From a virus: a stretch of DNA of 22,009 nucleotides. Positions 1,840-21,856 of the stretch are shown here, one piece after another. Position 1 is the first letter of the stretch, and every line of letters begins with the position of its first letter. The stretch is taken from IMG/VR virus record IMGVR_UViG_3300025645_000521, positions 1 through 22,009 of that record; one strand, given 5' to 3'. A program made the position numbers and the translations under genes. The notes below the pieces were generated by a model, which did not search any database, had not been told where the DNA came from, and was given only the letters and a program-made list of their open reading frames with translations.

Positions 1840-3519
1840 ATGGAGACAGATAAACACCCCTTAAAAGACTTTAGGAACTTCTTGTTCCTCGTATGGAAGC
1901 AGCTAAACCTACCTGTACCTACAAAGGTACAATACGACCTTGCAGATTACCTTCAGACTAGCCCCAAGCGTTCCATCATTCAGGCGTTTCGTGGTGTAGG
2001 GAAGTCCTACATTACGAGTGCTTATGTGGTGTGGCGTTTGATGCTAGACCCTGACCTTAAGATCATGGTGGTGTCTGCAAGCAAGGAACGTGCAGATGCG
2101 TTCTCTATGTTTACTCAAAGACTCATTATGGAGATGCCACTACTGGCCCATCTTATCCCCGACAAAGACCAACTATGGAGCAGAATAGCCTTTAACGTAC
2201 AAGGTTCTATGGCCTCACACAGTCCTAGTGTCAAGTCGGTGGGTATCACTGGTCAGCTTACAGGCTCACGCGCAGACCTCATCATTGCAGATGACATTGA
2301 GGTTCCTAACAACTCACAGACTCAACAGATGCGTGAGAAGCTAACGACCCTAGTGACTGAGTTCGATGCCGTACTGAAGCCTTTAGACACCTCTAAGATC
2401 ATCTACCTTGGGACACCTCAGACAGAAGAGTCCTTATACGATGCTCTACAGGACAAGGGATACGTAACCCGTATATGGCCCTCTAGGTATCCTAAAGCAG
2501 ACCAAGTAAACAGGTACGGTGATCGTATTGCTCCTAGCCTTATGCTAGAGCTTGAAGCTGACCCTAGTATTGAGTGGAACCCTACAGACCCTATGAGATT
2601 CGATGAAGAAGACCTCATAGAACGTGAATTATCCTATGGACGCTCTGGCTATGCCCTTCAGTTCCAACTAGATACAAGCTTGTCAGATGCAGACAGACAC
2701 CCCCTCAAGCTTAAAGACCTAATAGTCATGTCAGTGGATGGTCAGAAAGCACCAGAGAAGCCCATACACGGCACCATGAGCCACCTTGAAGTCAAAGATG
2801 TACCCAACTTAGGGATGCGTGGAGATCGTTTCTACGAGCCTTTTAAGCTCTCTGGGGATTGGGTAGATTACACAGGTTCAGTCATGGCTATAGACCCTTC
2901 AGGTCGAGGCTCAGACGAGACTTCTTACGCAGTTCTAAAGATGCTCAATGGCTTCCTCTACTGTCCTGATATTGGGGGAGTAGAAGGGGGTTATTCAGGG
3001 CAGACGTTAGAGTCCTTAGTAGACATTGCTAAGAAAAACCAAGTGAACTACGTGCTAGTAGAAAGTAACTTTGGTGACGGTATGTTCAGTGAACTAATCA
3101 AACCTTACTTTACTAAAAGCTACCCCGTGACCTTGGAAGAAGTCAGACATAGCAAACAGAAAGAGTTAAGAATCATAGATACCCTAGAGCCAGTGATGAA
3201 CCAACATAGGCTTGTTATAGATCGTGAAGTTATCCAAAAGGATTATGACTCTATACAGAAGTATCCTAATGACATAGCTCAAAGATACTCACTGTTCTAC
3301 CAGATGACTAGAATTACTAAAGACCGTGGAGCATTAGCACACGATGACCGTTTGGATGCCCTAGCAATGGCTACAGCCTACTGGGTAGAGCAAATGGCAG
3401 GTGATGCAGATGAGCTAATGAGAGAAAGACACGGTGAATTATTAGACCTAGAGTTAGATAAGTTCTTAGGAAATCTTAATACATCCAATGTGCAAACCTC
3501 TAGTAACTCTTGGATTTAG
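1840..3519 (+). CDS. Terminase large subunit (ATPase/nuclease), T7 gp19-like
   Basis: The product is 559 aa (T7 gp19, 586 aa) and is similar throughout. It drives ATP-powered DNA translocation into the prohead and cuts the concatemer. The N-terminal ATPase has Walker A AFRGVGKS (49-56), the conserved VSASKERADA (78-87), SVKSVGITGQLTGSRAD and Walker B LIIADDIE (147-154), with YLGTPQ as coupling motif. The C-terminal RNase H-like nuclease has AIDPSGRGSDE (D352), VLVESNFGDGMF (E408) and HDDRLDAL (D502, D503, D506). AAGGGGA lies 6 nt before the ATG. The last conserved T7 C-terminal residues are replaced by a Ser/Asn-rich tail. This is the last gene before the presumed genome junction. Confidence 0.97.
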   Translation: METDKHPLKDFRNFLFLVWKQLNLPVPTKVQYDLADYLQTSPKRSIIQAFRGVGKSYITSAYVVWRLMLDPDLKIMVVSASKERADAFSMFTQRLIMEMPLLAHLIPDKDQLWSRIAFNVQGSMASHSPSVKSVGITGQLTGSRADLIIADDIEVPNNSQTQQMREKLTTLVTEFDAVLKPLDTSKIIYLGTPQTEESLYDALQDKGYVTRIWPSRYPKADQVNRYGDRIAPSLMLELEADPSIEWNPTDPMRFDEEDLIERELSYGRSGYALQFQLDTSLSDADRHPLKLKDLIVMSVDGQKAPEKPIHGTMSHLEVKDVPNLGMRGDRFYEPFKLSGDWVDYTGSVMAIDPSGRGSDETSYAVLKMLNGFLYCPDIGGVEGGYSGQTLESLVDIAKKNQVNYVLVESNFGDGMFSELIKPYFTKSYPVTLEEVRHSKQKELRIIDTLEPVMNQHRLVIDREVIQKDYDSIQKYPNDIAQRYSLFYQMTRITKDRGALAHDDRLDALAMATAYWVEQMAGDADELMRERHGELLDLELDKFLGNLNTSNVQTSSNSWI

Positions 3520-3600
3520 TATAGGCCGTGTTTGAAAACGCTCTACAGCCTTAGTGCTGTGTGGCTTTCACTGACCCCCCTTGTTTACGAATTAGCGTAC

Positions 3601-3665
3601 CGTTATAGGATACCCCCGTATACCCCTATAGGAAGGGGGGAGGAGGAGGCGTAGCCTACCCCCCC
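3601..3665 (+). repeat. Hairpin element, copy 1 (partner at 11221)
   Basis: This 65-bp stretch aligns without gaps to 11221-11285. Shared parts include CGTTATA at the left, an ACCCCC run, CCTATAG, and an inner hairpin AGGC-GTA-GCCT (3647-3657). The outer stem is GGGGGG (3635-3640) with the C-run 3659-3665. In the partner copy the outer stem is GGGAGC with GCTCCC and the loop is GCA, so both sides changed together. It lies 80 bp after terminase. Function is unknown; a structured RNA, a transcription stop or pause, or a packaging or processing site are options. Confidence 0.7.
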
Positions 3666-3973
3666 AACTACAGGTAATAGCTATTAGTTAACCTACTAGC
3701 TAGTAACAACCCAATACGGGATAACAGCGTATGTGTTGGTATGGCTTTTTGTTAACTCTAGGGTGGTGTAGGAGGGTTTAAGTTTTCTTAAGAAAAATCT
3801 GAGGGGGTATATATACGACCCGCCCAAGCCCTTCCCCCCGTGGCCCCCCCCTGCATACAAAGAGACAAAGGGGGGCACCCATCACCCCCACGGCATATAA
3901 TTACCGCGCCACTACCAAACTATTAATATAACTCGTTGATTTTACTGGGGTAACATGCGTTATTAAATCACTT

Positions 3974-4042
3974 GCCTATATATAGTGGGGAGTTGTGCCT
4001 ATATATAGCGGTGAGTTGTGCCTATATATAGCGGTGCGTATT
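3974..4042 (+). repeat. 23-bp tandem repeat, three units
   Basis: Units start at 3974, 3997 and 4020. Each begins GCCTATATATAG and continues G(C/T)GG(T/G)G and a GTTGT end; the third unit diverges at its last bases. The CCTATA core recurs nearby at 3624 and 4101. A GT-rich tract follows directly. T7 has arrays of a short repeat (CCTAAAG type) bordering its terminal repeat, and position here is equivalent, so a role in end formation or replication initiation is possible; tandem promoters are the alternative. Confidence 0.75.
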
Positions 4043-4286
4043 GTGTGGTGTGCTTTGGTGTTTGTGTGTGTGTTGTGGCCTACTGTTTTCATTTGGCCCC
4101 CTATAGTTTTCATTAGGTAATATAGGTATTACCTTAAGCCTACTTAATGTTAAATAAATGTTAATTAGTTGTTGCACATACGTTCTAACTGTGGCCTACT
4201 ATACCTACTAACACAACAACGCCTCGCTTGGTTCGGCTATTCGGAACCCTTAAGCCCCTTAACAATAAAGGGATAGACTTAAGTAA

Positions 4287-4399
4287 GCGGCCTAGCTCAT
4301 AGATGAGCATGAAGCCGCAGCACCGTGTTAGTTTTATCTAAGTGCCCCCTACTATATGTAGTTATTGTGATAGTTAGGAGGTGCTTAAATAAAACTAAC
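4287..4399 (+). promoter_or_regulatory. Two consecutive long hairpins in the leader of the early region
   Basis: The first hairpin (4287-4318) has outer stem GCGGC/GCCGC and inner stem GCTCA/TGAGC with a 4-nt loop. The second (4327-4399) pairs GTTAGTTTTAT (4327-4337) perfectly with ATAAAACTAAC (4389-4399), continues with an 11-bp stem containing two G-U pairs and one mismatch (4340-4350 with 4076-series bases 4376-4386), and a 4-bp top stem. The long broken duplex resembles RNase III substrates of T7 early transcripts (inference). The GTGATAGTTA at 4367-4376 is the reverse complement of a motif repeated further downstream. The first early ORF starts 26 nt after the second hairpin. Confidence 0.65.
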
Positions 4400-4421
4400 A
4401 GTAACTAAAAAGAGGTATTAA
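4396..4421 (+). repeat. 26-bp translation-leader repeat, copy 1
   Basis: This 26-bp stretch containing CAGTAACTAAAAAGAGGT is identical to 5014-5039. It holds the AGAGGT ribosome binding site of the ORF at 4425. Shorter parts of it (AAGAGGTATTAA, GGTATTAA) recur before the ORFs at 4666 and 6185. Confidence 0.75.
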
Positions 4422-4424
4422 ATT

Positions 4425-4631
4425 ATGACTAATTACCAATTAAGCAAAAAACTTCAATTAAAATTAAGTAGCTTGGAATGGGATGAGCGCGAACTCAGCC
4501 CTTTCGATGCCAGCTTTCTTAAAGATTCAAAAGTTATTACGGATAAAATAGCATCAACTTGGGACGAAATTGGAAACATTCCTTGGACGGAAGATGAGAT
4601 CAACGCTGCCGAAGCACGTTACGACAATTAA
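4425..4631 (+). CDS. Small acidic early protein, unknown
   Basis: The product is 68 aa and strongly acidic in its second half (WDEIGNIPWTEDEINAAEARYDN), with no membrane segment and no known motif. It is the first ORF after the presumed genome junction. T7-like phages place short host-takeover or anti-restriction proteins here, and several of those are acidic DNA mimics, but I see no specific similarity to a named family. The ribosome binding site AGAGGT lies in a 26-bp repeat shared with the ORF at 5045. A UUCG-type hairpin follows the stop. Confidence 0.65.
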   Translation: MTNYQLSKKLQLKLSSLEWDERELSPFDASFLKDSKVITDKIASTWDEIGNIPWTEDEINAAEARYDN

Positions 4632-4638
4632 CTATAAT

Positions 4639-4650
4639 GGGCTTCGGCCC
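4639..4650 (+). other. GGGC-TTCG-GCCC tetraloop hairpin
   Basis: A perfect 4-bp GC stem closes a TTCG tetraloop 8 nt after the stop of the preceding ORF and 15 nt before the next start. There is no T-run, so it is unlikely to be a terminator; it may protect a processed 3' end or shape the next ribosome binding site. Confidence 0.55.
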
Positions 4651-4665
4651 TTGGGGTATTAAATT

Positions 4666-4947
4666 ATGACTATTATAATAGAAGCTATTAACAAGACTTA
4701 TCAATCAACCGTAAATCGTATGTATATAGCAGAGCGTAAGTACAACGATTTAGTTGACGCTACTAGCAGACTTGAGGACGTGTCTAAACACATCAACTTA
4801 GATGATGATAAGGCATGGGCTAAAAGCATGCGTAAGCAAGAGGACATGTGGTGCAAGTTTATGGATTACTTTAATGACTTGCCGAAACGTGAACAGCAGA
4901 ACGCAGAGCGTAAGTATAAAGCTATACACGGCTATAGCTGCGTTTAA
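4666..4947 (+). CDS. Small helical early protein, unknown
   Basis: The product is 93 aa, highly charged and predicted mostly helical (RMYIAERKYNDLVDATSRL, KSMRKQEDMWCKFMDYF). No known motif is visible. The 18 bp around its start (GGTATTAAATTATGACTA) match those at the start of the ORF at 4425, which suggests duplication of a gene-start cassette. It belongs to the early block of small genes; function cannot be inferred. Confidence 0.65.
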   Translation: MTIIIEAINKTYQSTVNRMYIAERKYNDLVDATSRLEDVSKHINLDDDKAWAKSMRKQEDMWCKFMDYFNDLPKREQQNAERKYKAIHGYSCV

Positions 4948-5013
4948 CAATGATGATGATAGTTATCAGGTCGGCATTGAGTACCAGTGCCACTGAGTAA
5001 ACATCAACACTAA

Positions 5014-5039
5014 TAACAGTAACTAAAAAGAGGTATTAA
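5014..5039 (+). repeat. 26-bp translation-leader repeat, copy 2
   Basis: Identical over 26 bp to 4396-4421. It supplies the AGAGGT ribosome binding site of the membrane-protein ORF that starts at 5045. Confidence 0.75.
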
Positions 5040-5044
5040 CCCTA

Positions 5045-5290
5045 ATGACTACTTTAAGAACCCGCACTTTAATCAACCGAACTAACCACAACCCAAAGCC
5101 TAGTAAGATAGTTATGGTTTTTAATGAGGCCATAGTTTTACTTGTGTTTGTTGGTATATCGTTATTTATTTATTCAGCTTTAGTAATGCACCCAACTGTT
5201 AGCTTTTTGGGTTTATCTCTATTGTTTGTTTATTGCTGGATGTGTTTTCACTTATTTACTGGGCTAGTTAAAAGAATATTCAACCTTTAA
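5045..5290 (+). CDS. Small protein with two membrane segments, unknown
   Basis: The product is 81 aa. A basic Asn/Thr/Arg-rich N-terminus of about 20 residues is followed by two hydrophobic segments (EAIVLLVFVGISLFIYSALV, then SFLGLSLLFVYCWMCFHLF) and a short basic tail KRIFNL. By the positive-inside rule both ends would face the cytoplasm. It has no similarity I recognise. Position suggests an early membrane-acting protein, for example one affecting superinfection or host membrane functions, but that is a guess. Confidence 0.65.
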   Translation: MTTLRTRTLINRTNHNPKPSKIVMVFNEAIVLLVFVGISLFIYSALVMHPTVSFLGLSLLFVYCWMCFHLFTGLVKRIFNL

Positions 5291-5295
5291 TCTAA

Positions 5296-5311
5296 TTGCA
5301 CCTTATGTGCT
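5296..5311 (+). promoter_or_regulatory. 16-nt repeated motif, copy 1 of 5
   Basis: TTGCACCTTATGTGCT. It fits the consensus TTGC(A/G)(A/C)C-N2-ATGTG(C/T)T seen also at 5839, 11018, 11187 and 13820, always on the + strand in gaps between genes. This copy is 48 nt before the ORF at 5359 and can also fold as GCAC/GTGC. Confidence 0.45.
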
Positions 5312-5358
5312 TAATAATTACTTGAGGCCTTATAGCCGCTATGTGGAGTTGTACCCTT

Positions 5359-5838
5359 ATGCTTACTTATACTGAACTTAAAGACGTTAAAACCTTTTGT
5401 AATTCTTTACATTCTACCCCCGATTTTAAAGAGGTAGTTATTAGCCTTACTGAATACGCTACCCCCGACACTATAGTCGATCATAACGATACGATGCCCG
5501 ATGATTTCGAGGTTGATAACGTGCGCTTTATACGTTCTGACGCTATCGACTCAATACAAGTTGAGGAGCTATGCAGCGACCTTTATATGTTAGGTTGCTT
5601 CAATTCTTGGTTTTTATCTAGTGTTTTAGATATAGATGAGGACGTGATAGCTGCCCTTCAGGAGGCCGAAGCTTACGAGGCTTTAGGTAAGATGATTGTA
5701 TCTATGGGTAAGCTTAAAGAGGTACAGCAGGGTTACTCAAGTACCGATGGGTACGGGCACCACTTTAACCACTATGACTTCAGTGAGCAAGAGCTAACCA
5801 TAGCAGGAACCGATTATTTGGTATTTGATAACCATTGA
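5359..5838 (+). CDS. Acidic early protein, unknown
   Basis: The product is 159 aa from ATG 5359, which has GGAG (5345-5348) 10 nt upstream; an in-frame ATG at 5341 would add six residues but has a poorly placed ribosome binding site. The protein is rich in Asp/Glu throughout (for example SVLDIDEDVIAALQEAEAYE). Its C-terminus is dense in Tyr, His and Asp, including a GYGHHFNHYDF stretch. No domain is recognised. Its charge would fit a DNA-mimic or host-protein inhibitor, but neither is shown by any motif. Confidence 0.7.
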   Translation: MLTYTELKDVKTFCNSLHSTPDFKEVVISLTEYATPDTIVDHNDTMPDDFEVDNVRFIRSDAIDSIQVEELCSDLYMLGCFNSWFLSSVLDIDEDVIAALQEAEAYEALGKMIVSMGKLKEVQQGYSSTDGYGHHFNHYDFSEQELTIAGTDYLVFDNH

Positions 5839-5854
5839 TTGCAACTTATGTGTT
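5839..5854 (+). promoter_or_regulatory. 16-nt repeated motif, copy 2 of 5
   Basis: TTGCAACTTATGTGTT, directly after the stop codon of the preceding ORF and 82 nt before the ORF at 5936. It matches the motif also present at 5296, 11018, 11187 and 13820. TTGCA is followed 18 nt later by TGCAA (5862-5866), so this copy also lies in an inverted repeat. Confidence 0.45.
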
Positions 5855-5868
5855 GTTTTGGTGCAACG

Positions 5869-5893
5869 GCTGCTAATTCCCCTAGCGGCTTTT
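5869..5893 (+). terminator. Candidate rho-independent terminator
   Basis: GCTGCTA (5869-5875) pairs with TAGCGGC (5883-5889), 7 bp with one G-U pair, around a 7-nt loop, followed by TTTT. The T-run is short, so termination would be partial at best. Confidence 0.4.
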
Positions 5894-5935
5894 GCCATGA
5901 ACCAACCCAACTATTAAAACAAGAGGTACTAACTA

Positions 5936-6166
5936 ATGTTACATAACACATTTAACGCACACTTAAGCGCAGACTTTTATTCTAATGATGAGGCCATTGC
6001 ATGGGCTAACGGTATTGTTTGGAATGAAATAGAAATTGAAGCCGAAGATATTCGACACGGTGACCATATCGCCACGGTACAGGGTGATGTTGGTGTTTGG
6101 TACGACTATGTTGGGGGCTATTACTTTTTTACTGAAGAAATTCCCTTTGAAAATATTCCCTATTAA
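5936..6166 (+). CDS. Small acidic early protein, unknown
   Basis: The product is 76 aa with many Asp, Glu, Trp and Tyr residues (for example IVWNEIEIEAEDI and GVWYDYVGGYYFFTEE), and no membrane segment or known motif. The alternating hydrophobic and acidic pattern suggests a small beta-rich fold. AGAGGT sits 8 nt before the ATG. It is followed 18 nt later by another acidic early protein that uses the same AAGAGGTATTAA leader seen at 4425 and 5045. Confidence 0.65.
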   Translation: MLHNTFNAHLSADFYSNDEAIAWANGIVWNEIEIEAEDIRHGDHIATVQGDVGVWYDYVGGYYFFTEEIPFENIPY

Positions 6167-6184
6167 TAAAGAGGTATTAATCTA

Positions 6185-6700
6185 ATGAATACTACAATTA
6201 ACTTTGGTGGTTTTTACCACACACATCACGAATACATTATTGAGCAAGCCGTGGGTTATATGCTAGGCATAGATGACCCCGAAACTGGCGAAATAGACAG
6301 TGAAGCTTTATATGATTTTAATGATTGGCCTAGTGTTATGAATGATTACGCTAAACAATGGTTAGATATGCTTAATGCTGACTTAGGTACGTCACTATCA
6401 TTTATGGAACTAAATAGCCCCCGTGAGTACAACTTTAAAACTGACGTTATATTTGCAGATATACCTGATGACGATATTTTATTAATCAAAGAATACATAA
6501 AACATAATCATTTAAGTACGTCATTAAGTGAGCATATAAAGAACGTGACAACATCTTACGATGGATACCGCGCCTTTTATTCTGGCCCTGATTTAGAGTT
6601 GCCAGAAAATGAGGACGTTTTAATTCAACTTATGCTTGATGTAATCATTGCAGACTTAGGGGAAAACTATCCCTATATTTGTGAAGATTTTCAATCTTAA
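6185..6700 (+). CDS. Conserved-looking phage protein, unknown function, acidic
   Basis: The product is 171 aa. Features are an N-terminal NFGGFYHTHHEYIIEQ segment, a central WLDMLNADLG...FMELNSPREYNF region, and a C-terminal GYRAFYSG and LDVIIADL region. I recall the FY(x)H(D/E)xxI ... SPRxYNFxTDxI pattern in hypothetical proteins of unrelated phages and plasmids, so this is likely a real widespread family, but I cannot name it with certainty. The protein is acidic overall and soluble. The ribosome binding site AAGAGG belongs to the repeated early leader. Confidence 0.75.
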   Translation: MNTTINFGGFYHTHHEYIIEQAVGYMLGIDDPETGEIDSEALYDFNDWPSVMNDYAKQWLDMLNADLGTSLSFMELNSPREYNFKTDVIFADIPDDDILLIKEYIKHNHLSTSLSEHIKNVTTSYDGYRAFYSGPDLELPENEDVLIQLMLDVIIADLGENYPYICEDFQS

Positions 6701-6720
6701 TAAAGGGGGGTTTTAATTGT

Positions 6721-6852
6721 ATGGAACCTATAGTCCTTTTTAATATCGTACTGCACCCACACACTTGGCCTTTAGTTTTGGGGGTGCCCTCGTTTCTAAT
6801 AATTACCGCAGTAATCGCGGGTATTTATGAGCTAGTAAAAAGACCGCAGTAA
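6721..6852 (+). CDS. Small single-pass membrane protein
   Basis: This 43-aa ORF follows the preceding gene by 20 nt, with an AGGGGGG ribosome binding site 12 nt upstream. It has a hydrophobic stretch WPLVLGVPSFLIITAVIAGI and a basic C-terminal tail (ELVKRPQ), so a single membrane span is likely. No family is recognised. It ends 8 nt before a terminator stem and is probably the last gene of the 4425-6852 transcription unit. Confidence 0.55.
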   Translation: MEPIVLFNIVLHPHTWPLVLGVPSFLIITAVIAGIYELVKRPQ

Positions 6853-6860
6853 ATCGAGTG

Positions 6861-6926
6861 CCTATAGTTTTCCTTTTTATTTTATTTTATTTTGAAATTA
6901 ATTGGAAAATTATAGGTATTTTTTTT
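6861..6926 (+). terminator. Rho-independent terminator with long loop
   Basis: A 13-bp stem with one G-U pair joins CCTATAGTTTTCC (6861-6873) to GGAAAATTATAGG (6904-6916) around a 30-nt A/T-rich loop and is followed by TA and eight T. It closes the first block of small early genes. Confidence 0.7.
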
Positions 6927-6969
6927 GGCCTCAATTTTAGCGATTCACCTATCATGGCTAACTATCATC
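6919..6969 (+). repeat. Post-terminator repeat cassette, copy 1
   Basis: The T-run and the following GGCCT-N-AATTTTAGCGATT, CTATCAT and TAACTATCA are nearly identical to 8534-8585. In both copies a small ORF starts 82-84 nt after the T-run begins. CTATCAT occurs twice here, 13 bp apart (6949 and 6962). TATCAT could act as a -10 element, but the best -35 is 19 bp away, so an operator or a phage-specific promoter is as likely. Confidence 0.6.
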
Positions 6970-7000
6970 GAACCCGCACTTCAAATATTTAGGATTTCCC

Positions 7001-7078
7001 ATGGATTTAAATACCACCCTCACGGCTATTACGTTAATTGTCGTGTTGGTTTTTCTACTTACGTTTAATGGTGAATAG
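7001..7078 (+). CDS. 25-aa membrane micro-protein
   Basis: This short ORF encodes 25 residues, of which about 17 in the middle are hydrophobic (LTAITLIVVLVFLLTF), with a polar N-terminus (MDLN) and an NGE end. An AGGA motif lies 6-7 nt before the ATG. It sits alone downstream of a terminator and a repeated promoter-like cassette, which argues that it is expressed on its own. The small size limits confidence. Confidence 0.45.
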   Translation: MDLNTTLTAITLIVVLVFLLTFNGE

Positions 7079-7135
7079 ACCCACCACCAGTAATCTATTA
7101 TGATCTAAACTATAAAAAAGAAGGGAGTAAAGAAA

Positions 7136-7453
7136 ATGCAAAAAGCACATTTACATTTAATTAAATGGGCAGTGGCCCGTGGTTACTCAGCAGCCGTATA
7201 CGGTGAAGGTGAGTTTGATGGTATTCATTCAACCTATAAAGATATTAAAGACAACTGCGAAGCTTGCGATATGGGCCAATTGGTTCTAGTTAAGCCTAGC
7301 AAGCAAGAGGGTAAATGGATTTCGTTAGCTACCTTTGCCTACGTCCATGAGTACGAACAAGAGCCAGAGGAGAGCATTTACGACTACGGTGTTAACTCAA
7401 TATCTGAGCAGTGGGAGCAGGACTATGCAGCAACAAAAGGGGTAACAGCATGA
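7136..7453 (+). CDS. First gene of a coupled five- to six-gene early operon, unknown
   Basis: The product is 105 aa. The N-terminal part (HLHLIKWAVARGYSAAVYGE) is followed by a DGIHSTYKDIKDNCEACD stretch and an acidic C-terminal half (EYEQEPEESIYDYGVNSI). I recall this general arrangement in short phage hypotheticals (a strand reading as 'visual' or 'status' proteins with W/Y-rich ends), but no function is known to me. AAGGGAG lies 9 nt before the ATG. Its TGA overlaps the next gene's start (ATGA), the first of several such overlaps through 8484, so the genes are translationally coupled. Confidence 0.7.
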   Translation: MQKAHLHLIKWAVARGYSAAVYGEGEFDGIHSTYKDIKDNCEACDMGQLVLVKPSKQEGKWISLATFAYVHEYEQEPEESIYDYGVNSISEQWEQDYAATKGVTA

Positions 7454-7638
7454 ACAAACCTAACAACCGCTATGACGCATTAACATTGGCTCTTGAGTTA
7501 GCCATAACCGCTAAAACTGACGATGGGGCATTTAGGGCCACGTCAATGGCTGAAGAGTTTGCTAGTACCATGAGCAAGTCTGAAGTTGAACGTGCCAAGT
7601 TAGAAGTAGAAGCTAAACTAAATGAGGTTAACGCATGA
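7450..7638 (+). CDS. Small helical early protein, unknown
   Basis: The product is 62 aa, mostly helical and charged (DALTLALELAITAKTDDGAF, KSEVERAKLEVEAKLNEV). The ATG at 7450 overlaps the upstream stop and has AGGGG about 8 nt upstream; an earlier in-frame ATG at 7411 lies inside the preceding gene and has no ribosome binding site. It ends in an ATGA overlap with the next gene. No family is recognised. Confidence 0.65.
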   Translation: MNKPNNRYDALTLALELAITAKTDDGAFRATSMAEEFASTMSKSEVERAKLEVEAKLNEVNA

Positions 7639-7850
7639 ACAAGCTAATCGAAACAACCACCAACGAAACTAATCACATTCATTGGGCAGAAATTGATGGG
7701 GTTAAGTACGGGATTTACGATTCCTTTGACCCAGACACGTTGATGGTCGCTGATGATCAATGGAATGTTGATAACTGTGACCGCTCAGAACGTGCTGCTA
7801 ACGAGAAGATTGCAGATCAGATACATAGTTTAGTGGGAGGTGACAAATGA
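7635..7850 (+). CDS. Small early protein with W-x-x-x-(D/N)G-x-(K/R)YG motif, unknown
   Basis: The product is 71 aa and acidic. HWAEIDGVKYGIYDSFD resembles LWFTFNGARYGYVYAID in the ORF at 8263, with matching spacing, so the two may be distant paralogues or share a small beta-hairpin fold. The rest is charged and helical (DRSERAANEKIADQIHSLV). It is coupled on both sides by ATGA overlaps. Function unknown. Confidence 0.65.
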   Translation: MNKLIETTTNETNHIHWAEIDGVKYGIYDSFDPDTLMVADDQWNVDNCDRSERAANEKIADQIHSLVGGDK

Positions 7851-8047
7851 ACATTGTAATTAATGGTGACACCGTTTTAACGGTTAGTATCGGTGCTGGT
7901 AAATATGCCCACCGTAAAATCAAAGCGGCAGTAGTTAACGCTGGTTTTGATTGGGAAAAGACTGACGTAGCAGTAGCTAACTGGCCTGAAAAGGGCCGTT
8001 ACTTGCAGAAAGTTGCAGGTCGTACTCAAATCAATGCGGGAGGTTAG
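7847..8047 (+). CDS. Small basic early protein, unknown
   Basis: The product is 66 aa. It is basic (KYAHRKIKAAVVNAGFDW, KGRYLQKVAGRTQ), unlike most neighbours, which are acidic. The first 15 residues suggest two beta strands, with an alanine-rich helix after them. No DNA-binding motif can be named. It overlaps the upstream gene by 4 nt; GGAGG precedes the start. Confidence 0.65.
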   Translation: MNIVINGDTVLTVSIGAGKYAHRKIKAAVVNAGFDWEKTDVAVANWPEKGRYLQKVAGRTQINAGG

Positions 8048-8050
8048 AGC

Positions 8051-8266
8051 ATGAGCAATCCAACAAACGGGTGGGGTGACAGCACTGTTGCCACCTCATA
8101 TATTTGCAGTAGGCTATACGACATACTGGACGCAAGATTTGCGCCTGAAAAAGACATGGCTCAAGAATTGTCAAACCTTTATAGTGAGTTAGCCCATAAT
8201 TTTACTGTAGATACAGGGCTTAAAGTTGGCCCTTTTATCCAAAGCTTAAATGAGGGTGGCGAATGA
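8051..8266 (+). CDS. Small early protein, unknown
   Basis: The product is 71 aa, probably all helical (YICSRLYDILDARF, MAQELSNLYSELAHNF), with a Gly-rich C-terminal LNEGGE. The start at 8051 has GGGAGG 7 nt upstream. The last codons overlap the next gene by 4 nt. No family is recognised. Confidence 0.65.
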   Translation: MSNPTNGWGDSTVATSYICSRLYDILDARFAPEKDMAQELSNLYSELAHNFTVDTGLKVGPFIQSLNEGGE

Positions 8267-8484
8267 GTGATATACAACTAACCCACGAATTAGCCGAAAG
8301 ACTCCTAACGAATCCCAATGACACTGATGAAATACTTTGGTTCACCTTTAACGGTGCTAGGTATGGATATGTGTACGCAATCGACTCTGTTGTTGATTAC
8401 AAGCTCAAACGTCAGGAATTTGGCCTAGCATCTTTAGCAATCATGTACGCATTGGAGGCGTTACGAGTACGTATTGTCTGCTGA
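8263..8484 (+). CDS. Small early protein, last gene of the coupled operon, unknown
   Basis: The product is 73 aa. It contains LWFTFNGARYGYVYAID, similar to the motif in the ORF at 7635, and a C-terminal helical hydrophobic segment (FGLASLAIMYALEAL). The stop at 8484 is 29 nt before a clear rho-independent terminator, so it ends the transcription unit begun at or before 7136. Function unknown. Confidence 0.65.
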   Translation: MSDIQLTHELAERLLTNPNDTDEILWFTFNGARYGYVYAIDSVVDYKLKRQEFGLASLAIMYALEALRVRIVC

Positions 8485-8512
8485 CCTACACCAGCACTTG
8501 CAGCACCCATTA

Positions 8513-8541
8513 AAGCCAGCCACACAAGCTGGTTTTTTTTT
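8513..8541 (+). terminator. Rho-independent terminator
   Basis: CCAGC (8516-8520) pairs with GCTGG (8528-8532) over a 7-nt loop, the stem being extended by A-T pairs into the run of nine T (8533-8541). It is the best terminator in the window by shape. Confidence 0.8.
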
Positions 8542-8586
8542 GGCCTTAATTTTAGCGATTCAGCTATCATTTTACTAACTATCACC
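8533..8586 (+). repeat. Post-terminator repeat cassette, copy 2
   Basis: This stretch repeats 6919-6969: T-run, GGCCT, AATTTTAGCGATTCA, CTATCAT (8564-8570) and TAACTATCACC (8576-8586). It again follows a terminator and again lies about 84 nt before a small ORF. The TAACTATCACC part recurs at 9610 before the integrase and, as CAACTATCACC, at 10981. Confidence 0.6.
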
Positions 8587-8617
8587 AGACCTTAATTAAA
8601 ACTTGGAGTATTTTTAT

Positions 8618-8728
8618 ATGCGAGATTATAACGAAACAACTTTTGACGATTTACCACCAGAGTTATTAGAGACTCTTAGCGACCATATCAGCCATGCGGA
8701 GGGACGGAGCAACTACAATAACAGGTAG
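8618..8728 (+). CDS. 36-aa acidic micro-protein
   Basis: The ORF encodes 36 aa, acidic in the first two thirds (FDDLPPELLETLSDHISHAE) and ending GRSNYNNR. GGAG lies 10 nt before the ATG. Its spacing from the repeated cassette mirrors that of the ORF at 7001, which supports expression. No similarity is recognised; short length keeps confidence moderate. Confidence 0.45.
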   Translation: MRDYNETTFDDLPPELLETLSDHISHAEGRSNYNNR

Positions 8729-8742
8729 CTAATCTACCAACC

Positions 8743-8796
8743 TTTGTGTTAACTTGGCCTGTCGGTGGTATTTGCCGACACTCAACAAAGCACAAA
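8743..8796 (+). other. Long imperfect hairpin in the gap before 8833
   Basis: TGTCGG (8760-8765) pairs with CCGACA (8775-8780), and TTTGTG (8743-8748) with CACAAA (8791-8796) farther out. There is no T-run on the + strand, so it is more likely an mRNA leader structure or processing site than a terminator. Confidence 0.4.
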
Positions 8797-8832
8797 CATC
8801 TATAAGTAATCATATAATGGAGATGGATTAGG

Positions 8833-9003
8833 ATGTTTATAAAAAACTTCTTAGGTTTAAGGCGCGATTTGCACTTATGTAAATGGCCCAAAGGAACCTT
8901 TTATTCCGCAACTTACTTTAACTTTACGGTTAAAGCTATTCAACTAAGGATTGGGCTTTATGAGCTTGAACTAAGCAAAAAATTTAAGGATAATTCACAA
9001 TGA
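8833..9003 (+). CDS. Small basic protein, unknown
   Basis: The product is 56 aa with a basic, aromatic-rich N-terminal half (MFIKNFLGLRRDLHLCKWPKG) and a helical second half (VKAIQLRIGLYELELSKKF). The composition would suit an amphipathic membrane-associated or nucleic-acid-binding peptide; nothing more specific can be said. GGAG lies 10 nt before the ATG. The TGA overlaps the next start (ATGA). Confidence 0.5.
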   Translation: MFIKNFLGLRRDLHLCKWPKGTFYSATYFNFTVKAIQLRIGLYELELSKKFKDNSQ

Positions 9004-9245
9004 ACACACATAATAAAATAACGGTGGCTGCTATACGCGGTTCACTACAAGTGCCATACATGGCTTGGATGGAACATTCAGAATGGCCTATTTACATGAC
9101 CTTCATAGACCATATGTCTGATACATCCCCAGTGTATATATCTAAAACACCAGACTTTTCAAACAGCATCTTAAGTTTTGGGGCAGATTCAATGTCACAG
9201 ATTCCTCAAGGCCCAAACGGAGACACCACAAATGGAAGCAATTAA
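9000..9245 (+). CDS. Small protein upstream of the regulator, unknown
   Basis: The product is 81 aa with mixed composition, several Met and Trp residues (VPYMAWMEHSEWPIYMTF) and a polar Gly/Asn-rich C-terminus. There is no membrane segment or known motif. It starts within the ATGA overlap with the preceding ORF and its 3' end overlaps the winged-helix regulator gene by 14 nt, so the three genes 8833-9612 form one unit. An association with lysogeny control is suggested only by position. Confidence 0.6.
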   Translation: MNTHNKITVAAIRGSLQVPYMAWMEHSEWPIYMTFIDHMSDTSPVYISKTPDFSNSILSFGADSMSQIPQGPNGDTTNGSN

Positions 9246-9612
9246 AATAGAAGATGGGCTTAACCCAGAACAGCGTAAGACCCTTAAGAAACTTATAGAT
9301 GTACTGGAGCAGTTCAGGACATTAGACCCTGACATGCCCACTCAAACTCTACTCGCTTTTCTCTACTGCAAGGTATTGGAAAACGAGGAAGATTTTGCAA
9401 CTGTGAGAATGATTTCTGAGAAACTTCGCACATCTAGCTCTAGTGCTAGTCGCAATATCCTAGCTCACACTGAGCATAACCGTCAGTTAAAAGGAGGTAC
9501 GAAATTAGTAGAGACTTTTGAGAACCCACTCAAACGCAATGAAAAAGTTGTACGGTATACCCTGAAGGGTGAGCGTATGCTTGAGTCAGTTTTATCCCGC
9601 TTGTCGGACTAA
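9232..9612 (+). CDS. Winged helix-turn-helix regulator, MarR-like
   Basis: The product is 126 aa. The order is an N-terminal helix (QRKTLKKLIDVLEQFRTLD), then a helix LLAFLYCKVLENEE, FATVRMISEKLRTSSSSASRNILAHT as the helix-turn-helix with recognition helix, and a wing-like part with KLVETFENPLKRNEKVVRYTLKGERML, all typical of MarR-type winged helices. The start at 9232 is preceded by GGAG; an in-frame ATG at 9178 lies inside the upstream gene. It stands directly before the integrase, so it could be the repressor or another regulator of lysogeny or of int. Palindromes at 10888-11166 and the TAACTATCACC motif are candidate binding sites (inference). Confidence 0.75.
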   Translation: MEAIKIEDGLNPEQRKTLKKLIDVLEQFRTLDPDMPTQTLLAFLYCKVLENEEDFATVRMISEKLRTSSSSASRNILAHTEHNRQLKGGTKLVETFENPLKRNEKVVRYTLKGERMLESVLSRLSD

Positions 9613-9709
9613 CTATCACCTCTTAAATTAAATAACTTCTTTTCAGCAAAACACACTATTTATTGGTGGTTTTGTTGTGTCTGAAATCCTAAATAAAAAG
9701 GAAAATCAA

Positions 9710-10723
9710 ATGTCTATTTCCCCGCAAGCAGGTGGCACTTTTAGCAGCGCATTTATGGCGCAATCAGAACGATACTATGCAGCAGGTTTTGCTACTAAGA
9801 ACTTGGCCCACATATGGGAACTCTCTGCAAAAGAAGAGATTAAACAAGGCTTCGCAGTCACATACCCCAAGGGCACTATAAGCCCCAGTAAAGGTGTTGA
9901 TGTGAGCATATCTGTATGGCTAGATAAGACGTATAGAATGTTCTGGGAAGGTACTGCAAGTGCTTCACAATCACGTCACAAGATGAAAGAAATTAATGCC
10001 TACTTCGGTGCTAAAACTGATGTTAATGACCTAAGTACCGTATTAATAGATGAATTTATTCACCATCTTAAACGTGACAATAACGCAAACTCAACTATCA
10101 ATCGCAAGTTGGCAACAATAAGCAAAATGCTTAACTACGCAGACGAATGTATTCAATTGCGACATAAGCCAAAGATACATAGGCAGAAGGAACCACAAGG
10201 TCGTATGCGGTTCGTAAGCCCTGAAGAAGAGTTGCAGATTATGCACACCCTCGACCAGTGGAGCCAGATAGATTTAAAAGATTCAATCACTGTTCTTTTG
10301 GATACGGGGATGCGTAGGAGTGAGCTAGGACGTATTGAAGGAGCCGATATTCAGTCTGACGTAATCAACATATGGAAGACTAAGAATACGATTGAACGCT
10401 CCATACCCATGACTAGCCGTGTAAAAGAAATCATGGCAAGGCGCACAATTAAAGCTAACTCTGTTTCTACAAAAACCTCTAAGCTTTTTCCTCAGAACAT
10501 GGAAACCTTATCGAAGCACTGGAACAGAGTACGGTATCACTTAGGCTTTGATGACATGGTATTGCACACCTTTAGGCACACTACTGCAAGTCGCTTAATA
10601 CAGCGAGGAGTTGGTGTAGGTGTAGTTAAAGAGTGGATGGGACACAAGACGATTTCCGTCACTATGCGCTATGCTCATTTAAGCCCTAAAAACTTACTTG
10701 ATGCTGTTGCAGTCCTTGAGTAA
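9710..10723 (+). CDS. int: Tyrosine-family site-specific integrase
   Basis: The product is 337 aa. A core-binding N-terminal domain (to about 165) is followed by the catalytic domain with all expected residues: LDTGMRRSEL (R202), WKTKN (K223 or K225), LHTFRHTTASRL (H286, R289), WMGHKT (H312) and the nucleophile in TMRYAHLS (Y321). It would integrate and excise phage DNA, most likely in the tRNA-Leu gene whose copy lies 46 bp downstream. ATG 9710 has AAGGA 7 nt upstream; a GTG at 9677 would add 11 residues and is less likely. TAACTATCACC at 9610-9620, right after the regulator gene, may be an operator or arm-type site. Integrase genes occur in marine T7-like phages such as P-SSP7. Confidence 0.95.
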   Translation: MSISPQAGGTFSSAFMAQSERYYAAGFATKNLAHIWELSAKEEIKQGFAVTYPKGTISPSKGVDVSISVWLDKTYRMFWEGTASASQSRHKMKEINAYFGAKTDVNDLSTVLIDEFIHHLKRDNNANSTINRKLATISKMLNYADECIQLRHKPKIHRQKEPQGRMRFVSPEEELQIMHTLDQWSQIDLKDSITVLLDTGMRRSELGRIEGADIQSDVINIWKTKNTIERSIPMTSRVKEIMARRTIKANSVSTKTSKLFPQNMETLSKHWNRVRYHLGFDDMVLHTFRHTTASRLIQRGVGVGVVKEWMGHKTISVTMRYAHLSPKNLLDAVAVLE

Positions 10724-10757
10724 AAATGTATAATCACGGCCTCTTCTTCGGGAGAGG
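10707..10757 (+). promoter_or_regulatory. sigma70-type promoter and leader hairpin of the tRNA gene
   Basis: TTGCAG (10707-10712) and TATAAT (10729-10734) are 16 bp apart. The -35 is inside the last codons of int. Transcription would start near 10741, at a 7-bp hairpin (10740-10757) closed by a C(TTCG)G tetraloop, then 12 nt to the mature tRNA. The arrangement looks like an intact bacterial tRNA transcription unit. Confidence 0.6.
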
Positions 10758-10769
10758 TTCACCCTAAAA

Positions 10770-10855
10770 GCCTTGGTGGTGGAATTGGTATACACAAGGG
10801 ATTTAAAATCCCTCGGCTTATGGCTATGCGGGTTCAAGTCCCGCCCAAGGCACCA
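10770..10855 (+). tRNA. tRNA-Leu (UAA), complete with encoded CCA
   Basis: The 7-bp acceptor stem GCCTTGG (10770-10776) pairs with CCAAGGC (10845-10851), followed by A and the encoded CCA (10853-10855). The anticodon stem AGGGA/TCCCT encloses the loop TTTAAAA with anticodon TAA (10804-10806). A long variable arm is present and GGTTCAAGTCCC forms the T arm. The sequence resembles gammaproteobacterial leuZ-type tRNAs. As it lies just after the integrase it most likely represents the attP identity region, but it is a full gene with promoter and terminator, so it may also be an active phage tRNA. Confidence 0.95.
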
Positions 10856-10857
10856 CT

Positions 10858-10885
10858 ATGAGATGTTTTATCTCATGTTCTTTTT
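10858..10885 (+). terminator. Rho-independent terminator of the tRNA gene
   Basis: ATGAGAT (10858-10864) pairs perfectly with ATCTCAT (10870-10876) over a 5-nt loop and is followed by GTTCTTTTT. It begins 3 nt after the tRNA CCA. Confidence 0.75.
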
Positions 10886-10887
10886 CA

Positions 10888-10912
10888 TGGTAAATTGCCG
10901 TGGTAATTACCA
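10888..10912. promoter_or_regulatory. Operator-like palindromes, cluster 1
   Basis: TGGTAAATT (10888-10896) is followed 4 bp later by the perfect palindrome TGGTAATTACCA (10901-10912). The same 9-mer and a related palindrome recur at 11146-11166. The spacing suits a dimeric regulator such as the MarR-like protein at 9232, or integrase/excisionase arm sites next to the tRNA. Confidence 0.5.
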
Positions 10913-10979
10913 AGATTAAGGTCAGTACCAGCAAGTCTTTTGTTGATATGATCTTATGAATCAATGACTTACACCTACC

Positions 10980-11069
10980 TCAACTATCACCAATTAGACT
11001 TAAAATGTCATGCTTAATTGCAACTAATGTGTTCAATGCTCCAATAAGCCCACCAGCAGTGCCTTTCAT
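10980..11069 (-). CDS. Possible 29-aa ORF on the opposite strand
   Basis: On the - strand an ATG at 11069 is preceded by AAGGGG at a good distance (9 nt) and opens 29 codons rich in Gly, Leu and Ile (MKGTAGGLIGALNTLVAI at the start). It lies in the otherwise gene-free gap between tRNA and RNA polymerase, and would be the only - strand gene of the window. There is no homology I can name, and the ORF could be chance. Confidence 0.2.
   Translation of the reverse strand: MKGTAGGLIGALNTLVAIKHDILSLIGDS
11018..11033 (+). promoter_or_regulatory. 16-nt repeated motif, copy 3 of 5
   Basis: TTGCAACTAATGTGTT matches the motif at 5296, 5839, 11187 and 13820. It lies in the gene-free region 278 nt before the RNA polymerase start. 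Confidence 0.4.
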
Positions 11070-11119
11070 GCTGATAAACCCCTTAAATTAACCTTGTCAC
11101 ACATGAGCAGCAGACTTTA

Positions 11120-11166
11120 TGGTTTTACCATTAAAGGGCTGTGTGTGGTAATACCAGTGGTAAATT
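11120..11166. promoter_or_regulatory. Operator-like palindromes, cluster 2
   Basis: Three related sites occur here: TGGTTTTACCA (11120-11130), TGGTAATACCA (11146-11156) and TGGTAAATT (11158-11166), the last identical to the site at 10888. They precede the 47-bp repeat and the RNA polymerase gene by 145-190 nt, a position from which a repressor could block transcription of the polymerase. Confidence 0.5.
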
Positions 11167-11180
11167 TATTTAATAAAACA

Positions 11181-11227
11181 CTTGACTTGCGACTCATGTG
11201 CTGAAAGCCCATAAGTATCCCGTTATA
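11181..11227 (+). promoter_or_regulatory. 47-bp repeat upstream of the RNA polymerase gene, with motif copy 4
   Basis: This stretch is the same as 13814-13860 at 45 of 47 positions. It contains the 16-nt motif TTGCGACTCATGTGCT (11187-11202), then GAAAGCCCATAAGTATCC and CGTTATA. The two copies flank the RNA polymerase gene on both sides, each about 40-85 nt before a gene start, which suggests promoter or processing elements. CGACTCA inside this copy also occurs in the T7 promoter, but the other motif copies lack it. Confidence 0.55.
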
Positions 11228-11285
11228 CCGCACCCCCCTGCATACCTATAGTAAGGGAGCAGAGGGAGGCGCAGCCTAGCTCCCC
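11221..11285 (+). repeat. Hairpin element, copy 2 (partner at 3601)
   Basis: Aligned base for base with 3601-3665. The inner stem AGGC-GCA-GCCT (11267-11277) is kept, and the outer stem is GGGAGC (11255-11260) with GCTCCC (11279-11284). It ends 26 nt before the RNA polymerase start codon, overlapping the 47-bp repeat by 7 nt (CGTTATA). Confidence 0.7.
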
Positions 11286-11310
11286 AATATTAGCTAACTT
11301 AGGAATTATT

Positions 11311-13809
11311 ATGTATATCAAACACACACAAGAAGAGTTACTTCAAATACAGATACAGCATGAGCAGGAGATGCTAGATCGTGGTGTTTCAAGATACCGT
11401 AGGAATGTACTAAAAGCACAAGCTAAAGGTCAGGAGTCCGATACACAACATGGCTCTTTGTTGATGAAAACAACCATAGATAAACTTATTAATAGTTTAG
11501 ATATTTACATTAAAACGTCACTGGCAGGAGAGGCAGGGAAGCACACTACGGCTGCTAAAATACTATCCACCTTAGACATAGAGGTATGCTGCTACGTAGC
11601 TCTCAAGTCCGTTATAAACTCACTCACGACCCGTTCAACAATGACCACTGTATGTGTGCAGATAGGCCAGAACATCCACGACCAACATCTATGTGACGAG
11701 TTCAAGTTACACAACAAGCTATGGTTTAAATCCACGATGGATTATATGGCGAAGCGTAAAGCTTCACGTATTCACCGCAAGATGACATTACGTAAGGCAG
11801 CAGATAAAGCTAACACTTCTTACAATACTTGGACTACTCCAGAGCTTTATCACATAGGCTCAAAGCTAGTCGATTTGATAATCCAGACAACAGGTATGGT
11901 GTTTGTTGACAAGGTGCATACAGGTAAGAAGAGGGTGACACATTATCTATCTGCGACACCTGAGATTCTTGATTGGGTGCGCCAACTTAATAGTCTGAAT
12001 GAAACCTTAACACCTGAAGCATTGCCCTTTGTCATTCCACCTAAAAATCGTACAACCATCATGTCCGAGGTTATGCACTCAACTATATGGAAGAAACGTC
12101 TACCGCTTATTAAGACACGCAATCGTCATCTACTGGAGGAGTTAGAGGGCGACCCTGATTTGAAGAAGACTATAGACGCTGTAAACATTCTTCAGAACAC
12201 ACCGTTTCGTATCAATAAACGTATAATTAAATTGCAACGCATGTGTTGGGAGTCTGGTCAGTCTTGGGGTGGTATTCCGTCTTGGGATGACACACCTATG
12301 CCGCTTTCACCCTTCCCTAATATGCCTACGCATACACTTAATGAATCTCAGAAGCAGATACTGTTTAAACATAAAAAAGCACTACAGTTGGTACACGAAA
12401 GGAACGCTAGTGCATTGTCTAAAAAGATAGCCTTTGAACGTAGTCTTATTGTTGCTGAACGGTTCAGTAAGTACAGCGAATTGTTCTTTATTTATCAGAC
12501 AGATTTCCGTGGACGTATCTATCCAGTTGCACAGTTTCTAAGTCCTCAAGGTAGCTCAGTAATTAAAGCCCAGATGGTACTTGCTAACGGCGCGCCTATT
12601 GACACGTTTGAGGAATTGTCATGGTTGTACCACCATGCAGCTAATTGTTTTGGCTATGACAAGAAGACCATTAGTGAACGTGTCAGACTAATTGAGGAAA
12701 TGATGCCAGAAATAATAGCTATTGATTCTGACCCTCTTACTCATACTTCTTGGAAAGACTGTGACGACCCGTGGGGATTCCTTGCAGCCTGTTTTGAGAT
12801 TGCCCAGTTTCAACGTGAGGGGTACGGTTTCATAAGTCACATTTCTGTAAATCTTGATGCAACTAATTCGGGACTCCAACTATATAGTGCTATGTTAAGA
12901 GATAAAGTTGGTGCCTTGGCGACAAATGTAATGCCTAGTGACAGTCCCGCAGACGTTTATAAAGACGTAGCTATCATCTGTGAAAACAAACTTGCTGAAG
13001 AAGCATTACTAGACACTGATGAAGCGGAGTGGGCTAAAGTTTGGTTAGAGATGGGCATAGATCGAAAGCTGTGTAAGAAGCCGTGTATGACTCGCTGCTA
13101 TAGCGCAACTTTGTTTTCTTGCCGCGACTATGTGAGGGACGAACTTACATATCGCTTTGAGTCTGGAAAGCTTATTAATCCTTTCGGGGACAACGATGAT
13201 GCTTTTATAAAGGCAACTTTTTACCTAGCTAAAATGATCTGGGCCAGCATTAGTGATTGCGTCATATCGGCACACGAAGCTATGAATTGGCTACAAAAGA
13301 TTGCGCGGGATGTGAGCCGAGAAGAGATACCACTCATGTGGCAAACACCAAGCGGCTTTAAGATCGTTCAGAGCTACCCTGAGATGAAATCCTTACGGAT
13401 ACAGACCCACATTGATGGACAGCTTGTGCGCCCTCGTATGGCCTCTCCTAACTATACCAAGGTGGATAAGAAGAGAGCAGCGTCTGGAGTCTCACCCAAT
13501 TTTGTTCATGGGATAGATTCTGCGTTCATGGTGCTGACGATACTTTCCTGCGCTTCTGGTGGTTCTGCTGGTGAAAAACCCATTACAGATTTTTGGATGA
13601 TTCACGATTCCTACGGAACGACAGTAAAGAATGTTGCACTGCTGGCAAAAACTCTCAGGGAGGTGTTTGTACAAATGTTTGAGGACAACGATGTGCTAGA
13701 GCAATTCCGTGATTCAATGCTAAAGGCTATTCCCGAAGTAGCCCACCCACCAAAGAAAGGCACCCTATGTTTGAAGGGCGTTATTGAATCTAAGTATTTT
13801 TTCTCTTAA
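11311..13809 (+). CDS. Single-subunit DNA-directed RNA polymerase, T7 gp1-like
   Basis: The product is 832 aa (T7 883). It transcribes the phage middle and late genes. Catalytic residues align with T7: D516 in NLDATNSGLQ (T7 D537), K589 and Y597 in KKPCMTRCYS (T7 K631, Y639), and D766 in MIHDSYGT (T7 D812). Also conserved are YQTDFRGRIYPVAQF, LYSAMLRDKVG, SGVSPNFVHGIDSA and the C-terminal ESKYFFS foot. Two oddities: the Gly after the catalytic Tyr in T7 is Ser598, and the specificity-loop positions that read the promoter in T7 (N748, R756, Q758) differ, so a T7-type promoter is not expected. AGGA precedes the ATG. Repeats stand on both sides of the gene. Confidence 0.97.
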   Translation: MYIKHTQEELLQIQIQHEQEMLDRGVSRYRRNVLKAQAKGQESDTQHGSLLMKTTIDKLINSLDIYIKTSLAGEAGKHTTAAKILSTLDIEVCCYVALKSVINSLTTRSTMTTVCVQIGQNIHDQHLCDEFKLHNKLWFKSTMDYMAKRKASRIHRKMTLRKAADKANTSYNTWTTPELYHIGSKLVDLIIQTTGMVFVDKVHTGKKRVTHYLSATPEILDWVRQLNSLNETLTPEALPFVIPPKNRTTIMSEVMHSTIWKKRLPLIKTRNRHLLEELEGDPDLKKTIDAVNILQNTPFRINKRIIKLQRMCWESGQSWGGIPSWDDTPMPLSPFPNMPTHTLNESQKQILFKHKKALQLVHERNASALSKKIAFERSLIVAERFSKYSELFFIYQTDFRGRIYPVAQFLSPQGSSVIKAQMVLANGAPIDTFEELSWLYHHAANCFGYDKKTISERVRLIEEMMPEIIAIDSDPLTHTSWKDCDDPWGFLAACFEIAQFQREGYGFISHISVNLDATNSGLQLYSAMLRDKVGALATNVMPSDSPADVYKDVAIICENKLAEEALLDTDEAEWAKVWLEMGIDRKLCKKPCMTRCYSATLFSCRDYVRDELTYRFESGKLINPFGDNDDAFIKATFYLAKMIWASISDCVISAHEAMNWLQKIARDVSREEIPLMWQTPSGFKIVQSYPEMKSLRIQTHIDGQLVRPRMASPNYTKVDKKRAASGVSPNFVHGIDSAFMVLTILSCASGGSAGEKPITDFWMIHDSYGTTVKNVALLAKTLREVFVQMFEDNDVLEQFRDSMLKAIPEVAHPPKKGTLCLKGVIESKYFFS

Positions 13810-13813
13810 AGGG

Positions 13814-13860
13814 CTTGACTTGCAACGCATGTGCTGAAAGCCCATAAGTATCCCGTTATA
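13814..13860 (+). promoter_or_regulatory. 47-bp repeat downstream of the RNA polymerase gene, with motif copy 5
   Basis: Same as 11181-11227 at 45 of 47 positions, beginning 5 nt after the RNA polymerase stop. It holds TTGCAACGCATGTGCT (13820-13835). A perfect 12-bp palindrome TACACAAGTGTA (13859-13870) overlaps its right end. The next ORF starts 40 nt later, so this is a likely promoter or processing site for the replication genes. Confidence 0.55.
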
Positions 13861-13899
13861 CACAAGTGTACCGAAAAACACACTTGATGGAGAGGAATA

Positions 13900-21581: not shown

Positions 21582-21856
21582 CAATGGCGGCTTAGTGGGG
21601 AAACCCACTCCGAAGAATTGCGTTAATTCAGGGAACACCTCTACCTAGTAGAGACAATCCTGAGCGAAGCCTTGTATCGTAAGTTATAAGGAACGTGCAA
21701 CGACTATCCCGCAAGGGAGTAGGGCATAAGCTAATGATGCTCGAAAAGCGTAACATCCTGAAAATTGGATGATGATATAGTCTGGACTATGCGGTGACGT
21801 ATAGAAGTTCATAAGAGAACTGGTGAAAGTGTTGCGACTTTCATCGAACATAATCG
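21582..21856 (+). ncRNA. Group I intron, 275 nt, no ORF
   Basis: The 5' exon ends in U (21581) and the intron ends in G (21856), the universal group I boundary. P1 is CCGT (21578-21581) with GCGG (21587-21590), giving the U-G pair at the splice site over a 5-nt loop. TCAGG/CCTGA (21628-21632 with 21659-21663) and CTCTAC/GTAGAG (21639-21644 with 21648-21653) form P4-P5-like helices; their sequence (GGGAACACCTCT...GACAATCC) recalls the T4 td intron core. P7 is GACTAT (21702-21707) with ATAGTC (21777-21782); TCCC-GCAA-GGGA (21706-21717) would be a P7.1-type helix, suggesting subgroup IA2. Splicing restores the RNR frame exactly. Confidence 0.93.

Follow-up and report, generated by a model that had tools for sequence, protein, structure and literature searches.

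Genomic context of the repeated element

The virus record IMGVR_UViG_3300025645_000521 of IMG/VR, analyzed here over a stretch of 22,009 nt (the window), derives from a marine temperate T7-like phage. The window contains genes for a terminase, early proteins, a MarR-like regulator, an integrase, tRNA-Leu, a T7-type RNA polymerase (RNAP), SSB, endonuclease I, amidase, helicase-primase, DNA polymerase, exonuclease, and a ribonucleotide reductase carrying a group I intron (21572–21804; Rfam RF00028, 83.9 bits). The terminase gene is followed by a long noncoding stretch (3520–4424). The nearest named phages were LUZ100 and pelagiphages by RNAP (~34%) and roseophages such as CRP-114 by terminase DNA (~65%), and no close relative of the RNAP was found in bacterial genomes. 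LUZ100 is a temperate T7-like phage with experimentally mapped transcription starts (PMC10134795, OP329100). Judged by its gene order, the window phage belongs to the LUZ100 type: MarR-like and integrase genes lie upstream of the T7-type RNAP gene, which is preceded by a predicted promoter. Both phages share the MarR-integrase-tRNA-Leu module (36% for the MarR-like protein, 35% for the integrase). The complete tRNA-Leu (TAA) gene of the window is located at 10770–10855, between integrase and RNAP, and the position of this tRNA beside the integrase in both phages suggests a captured attachment-site tRNA.

Other repeats were observed in and near the early region. A 37-bp pair with a T-run at its start (6919–6955 and 8534–8570, 95% identity) has its second copy directly after a terminator-like hairpin (8512–8536). 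An imperfect inverted repeat of 26 bp (4326–4400, 85%) lies just 5' of the first early gene; it is retained in the related sequences L022 and L042 and may represent an RNase III-type processing site.

Table 1 Features of the window discussed in the text; promoters, leaders, and the genome-end element are predictions.
Feature	Position	Strand	Basis or remarks
Terminase large subunit (T7 gp19-like)	1840–3519	+	Pfam Terminase-T7_RNaseH-like, E 2.7e-40
Terminator-like hairpin GCTCTACAGC-CTTAGT-GCTGTGTGGC + TTT	~3539–3568	+	Sequence; between terminase and promoter A
Promoter A, box1 AATTAGCGTACCGTTATA	3590–3607	+	Matrix score, upstream conservation; phiOR-like, predicted +1 at 3608
Leader A, C-run ACCCCC and box2 CTATAG	3608–3631	+	Spacing from box1 constant at 18 nt in nearly all relatives
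Hairpin A	3625–3674	+	Base stem CCTATAG/CTACAGG (one mismatch), outer stem, inner stem, triloop GTA; 5'-side internal loop AGGAGG
Conserved element AAAAATCTGAGGGGGTATATATACGACCC	3793–3821	+	Predicted genome-end (concatemer junction) element
MarR-like gene	9178–9612		Beside integrase
Upstream motif CTTGACTTG..TGCTGAAAG	11181–11207	+	Found with promoters B and C; absent from A and D
Promoter B, box1 CATAAGTATCCCGTTATA	11210–11227	+	Synteny; before RNAP gene, predicted +1 at 11228
Leader B, C-run and box2 CTATAG	11228–11251	+	
Hairpin B	11255–11284	+	Outer stem GGGAGC/GCTCCC, inner stem AGGC/GCCT, triloop GCA
Single-subunit (T7-type) RNAP	11311–13809	+	Pfam RNA_pol, E 2.3e-93; T7 RNAP structure 1aro, E 1.9e-98
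Promoter C, box1 CATAAGTATCCCGTTATA	13843–13860	+	After RNAP, before SSB gene; no hairpin

Two hairpin copies with compensatory changes

The 65-bp sequences at 3601–3665 (copy A) and 11221–11285 (copy B) align without gaps and are identical at 48 of 65 positions. The next best place for the 65-mer in the window reached 30/65, and dinucleotide shuffles of copy A (n = 300) at most 38/65; the two-copy observation is real and beyond chance. The locations given in the original prediction were also correct, with copy A after the terminase and copy B ending 26 nt before the RNAP start at 11311. The outer stem pairs 3635–3640 with 3659–3664 (GGGGGG/CCCCCC) in copy A and 11255–11260 with 11279–11284 in copy B, a difference of two compensatory pairs (G-C to A-T and G-C to C-G). 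The inner stem is the same in both copies (3647–3650/3654–3657 and 11267–11270/11274–11277), and a single base of the triloop differs. Gene conversion alone was rejected as the source of this likeness; it would not yield matched changes on both arms. Individual copies have unremarkable folding energies for their composition (z −0.2 to −2.0), so that the case for structure rests on covariation.

Among relatives, which were retrieved by RNAP and by terminase, further distinct hairpin copies were detected at the A site of L023 and at the B sites of L004, L005, L006, and L007, while the A copy of L004 is identical to that of the window within the hairpin. The outer 5' arms read GGGGGG, GGGAGC, AGGGGC, or AGGAGC, each matched by its 3' arm. 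Across the seven distinct copies all 70 of 70 pair cells are paired, and in three of the six outer pairs both partners have changed. At 0.324, the covariation score exceeded that of shuffles (0.140; 0/500 as high) and of slid controls (at most 0.171), with the support coming from only ~5 independent lineages. The original prediction had proposed selection on structure and had named stems broken in related phages as the finding that would speak against it; the stems hold in 7/7 distinct copies, which supports selection on structure, and compensatory changes keep the pairing across relatives. A covariance model, likewise proposed beforehand, matched only A and B sites, all in the subclade of the window. 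The inner AGGC/GCCT stem is invariant, so it gives no information on pairing, and a slipped AGG/CCT pairing is also possible. The triloop is GNA in all copies (N = T, C, or A), with G and A fixed. The base stem, which uses the CTATAG box as its 5' arm, can close in 8/8 copies examined and is weakest in copy B of the window and of L004.

The hairpins lie behind predicted phage promoters

Both 65-mers start with CGTTATA, the last seven bases of a T7/SP6-like phage promoter, and two copies exist because each begins inside such a promoter. This box1 is a CATTARCGTACCGTTATA-type motif of ~17 bp with a TATA-like melting region at its end, which recurs at gene-module boundaries. Each phage has four box1 sites, located after the terminase (A), before the RNAP (B), after the RNAP (C), and before the late genes (D); the window covers three of them, and D (CACTAACGTACCGTTACA) was found in L110. 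We infer that all four are T7-type promoters read by the phage's own RNAP. Promoter A scored 27.6 bits with a matrix built from other subclades only (random maximum 18.6). The box1 sequences of B and C scored 12.4 bits with the subclade-free matrix, no better than chance; their identification relies on synteny and on an upstream block of 48 bp that they share. Promoter B is syntenic in L004, L005, L007, L009, L010, and L025, and in ~20 A-site relatives an upstream conserved block ends at the box1 of promoter A.

LUZ100 has the phage promoters phi1 before the RNAP, phi2/phi3 after the RNAP, and phi8 after the terminase (PMC10134795, OP329100). Because these mapped promoters occupy equivalent places, A can be read as a phiOR-like promoter and B as the RNAP promoter. 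The two phages also agree in having a terminator after the terminase and a conserved element before the terminal repeat. They differ in the promoter sequence (ATTACCACACAG... in LUZ100) and in the hairpin of the window, of which LUZ100 has no copy.

Only the first two sites, after the terminase and before the RNAP, carry a hairpin leader. At C, a third copy of the upstream part (13798–13861) is found without the hairpin. Upstream of B and C lies CTTGACTTG-9-TGNTGAAAG (11181–11207 and 13814–13840), which is present in all relatives with B/C regions and is a candidate operator of the MarR-like regulator or a candidate overlapping host promoter.

In addition to the hairpin, A and B have in common the phage promoter end, an 18-nt spacer, and the CTATAG box (box2). 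Relative to the predicted start, the hairpins span ~+28 to +57; they are preceded by the C-rich leader of 18 nt and by CTATAG. The part of the original prediction that assigned the copies a shared role in transcription therefore stands with respect to location, as both are leaders of predicted phage promoters, which it had missed. Its suggestion of transcription termination was not supported. A GC-rich stem-loop shortly after a start site might act as an intrinsic terminator or attenuator, but U-runs are lacking after all copies, which sit just behind a predicted promoter and are not among the terminator-like sites of our scan. A terminator-like hairpin is instead found upstream, after the terminase, where it is kept in related A regions and occupies the same position as terminator T20 of LUZ100. 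By its sequence the hairpin thus does not appear to be an intrinsic (class I) terminator, and we regard this function as very improbable.

The strongest rival explanation concerns box2 itself. As CCTATAG it resembles the T7-type promoters of VSW-3 (...CACCTATA+GTA) and phiA318 (...GCCCTATA+G), and it could be a second tandem promoter 23 bp downstream of box1, which would place the hairpin at ~+4 of its transcript. The 23-bp spacing is constant, and LUZ100 possesses the tandem promoters phi2/phi3. However, within one genome the A and B versions of box2 are not alike at −8 to −12, and these bases also vary from family to family. Box2 is missing at C and D, which retain box1 by itself, and it also makes up the 5' arm of the base stem. 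We consider a box2 promoter unlikely.

The palindrome could also be a protein site on duplex DNA, namely an operator by which the MarR-like repressor silences A and B in lysogens. The MarR-like gene (9178–9612) adjoins the integrase, promoters A and B would serve the early genes and the RNAP, and MarR sites flanking the promoter before the RNAP were hypothesized for LUZ100 (PMC10134795). Yet within a single genome A and B have different outer arms that nevertheless stay matched, and relatives replace the sequence with other hairpins. Moreover, the internal loop has 6 nt in one strand of the stem and 1 nt in the opposite one, an asymmetry that leaves the nested arms without a shared dyad. This asymmetry and the differences between the arms of A and B disfavor an operator, and we give this explanation little credence.

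Copy A and the predicted genome end

In T7, the phage promoter phiOR lies between the terminase gene and the terminal repeat. Promoter A has the same arrangement. It differs from phiOR by its hairpin leader, and the junction element contains ATCTGAG instead of ATCTGTT, the class II pause motif (PMC11617373). Pausing of T7 RNAP at the concatemer junction starts packaging (PMC3276506). The element at 3793–3821, which includes ATCTG and a TATAAT-like box, is located ~185 bp beyond the +1 predicted for A, and versions of it occur downstream of the terminase in >30 distinct contigs. The general form AAAAATCTGAG.GGGTATAT was observed in the window, L119, L122, L130–L189, and LUZ100 (about 37071–37099) and represents a candidate genome-end or pause element. 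Its LUZ100 counterpart, AAAAATGCGAGACGGTATAGCGCCAACCC, ends where the 244-bp direct terminal repeat begins, so the terminal repeat of the window phage probably starts near 3822. Beside this predicted genome end, the noncoding stretch contains, at 3973–4041, three head-to-tail 23-bp repeats (TGCCTATATATAG.GG.GAGTTG), whose copy number varies between relatives.

Promoter A is situated ~185–215 bp before the predicted terminal repeat, and DNA end handling, which the original prediction had also considered, is therefore conceivable for copy A but leaves copy B before the RNAP unexplained. This idea applies to the neighborhood of A and not to the hairpin as such. The related explanation that the structure acts in DNA, as a single-strand hairpin for replication priming, concatemer processing, or terminal-repeat formation, gains from the position of A and from the ability of inverted repeats to fold as well on one strand as on the other. 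Across 27 loci, mean fold z-scores were −1.89 for the plus and −1.83 for the minus strand, and G.U pairs likewise showed no strand difference. Several points count against it: the same element occurs at B, well away from the ends, neither C nor D has it, and each copy is positioned where a promoter would direct its transcription. Conservation of the G.A-type triloop is restricted to one strand, which is the sole hint of a strand preference. We judge a DNA-level role to be decidedly unlikely.

Distribution of the leader element

The exact hairpin is confined to the subclade of the window. A pattern scan of IMG/VR found it behind a promoter in this subclade only, with other matches lacking promoter context, and a looser scan combined with the model search yielded no additional copies; a mobile or widespread repeat was accordingly rejected. 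Across IMG/VR, the exact box1-to-box2 pattern mostly hit unrelated sequence outside the subclade. At the B sites of the sister group (L010, L025) promoter and box2 are present with only a trace of the hairpin, which is thus not essential for RNAP expression in these phages. The A sites of other families contain unrelated sequences with strong hairpins (L042, and L040/L041 with a long outer stem), and 9 of 27 A regions gave fold z-scores below −3, although for the more distant families a rule, and not an alignment, fixed the positions.

The cultured roseobacter phages CRP-114 and CRP-227 also have MarR and integrase genes before the RNAP, and both their A and B sites consist of the promoter TTAGGTTGC..CCTAA, a C-run, TTCAG, and CTATAG. 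They differ from the window phage in promoter bases, do not match the hairpin model, and have a B leader too short for the hairpin. Sequence comparison with these phages and the sister groups indicates that the promoter, C-run, and CTATAG, common to A and B, are older than the hairpin. An Rfam 15 scan of the window detected only the group I intron and the tRNA, with no family matching the hairpin element above gathering score, and the open papers that we searched contain no description of this element, although subscription journals may hold one.

A proposed structured leader on two phage transcripts

The element is best read as a promoter leader and no longer as a site of termination or end handling. 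We see an even chance that the hairpin is a structured 5' leader behind two T7-type promoters, serving RNA stabilization or protein binding; this presumes that the promoters are in use and that the RNA form, rather than the DNA form, matters. The phage RNAP would start just after CGTTATA and produce a transcript whose first ~18 nt are C-rich and which then folds into a bulged stem-loop. At B, the RNAP mRNA would gain a 5' stem-loop with its ribosome site left free; simple masking of the translation start is unlikely here because the site (AGGA, 11301–11304) lies outside hairpin B. At A, the leader would head a transcript that runs from between terminase and terminal repeat toward the genome end. 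The structure would most probably protect the 5' end from decay or present the bulged hairpin (GGAGGC-GNA-GCC) to a protein.

T7 gene 10-type leaders carry a 5' stem-loop directly behind a phage promoter. The window leaders resemble them in the order of phage-RNAP promoter and stem-loop near the transcript 5' end. They differ in the ~27 nt between start and outer stem, in having no known sequence relation, and in being found on the RNAP promoter and on a promoter without an adjacent gene. As a long shot, one phage protein might bind the hairpin on both the RNAP mRNA and the packaging-site transcript and couple the two by RNA feedback, or the A transcript might be a small structured RNA in DNA packaging.

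For an uncultured group of marine phages of the temperate T7-like kind, our results provide a predicted promoter set, a testable leader element, and a predicted genome-end element. They also indicate that, in more than one lineage, a common leader follows both the phiOR-like and the RNAP promoter. Should the hairpin be bound by a protein, synthesis of the polymerase would be linked with transcription of the packaging site.
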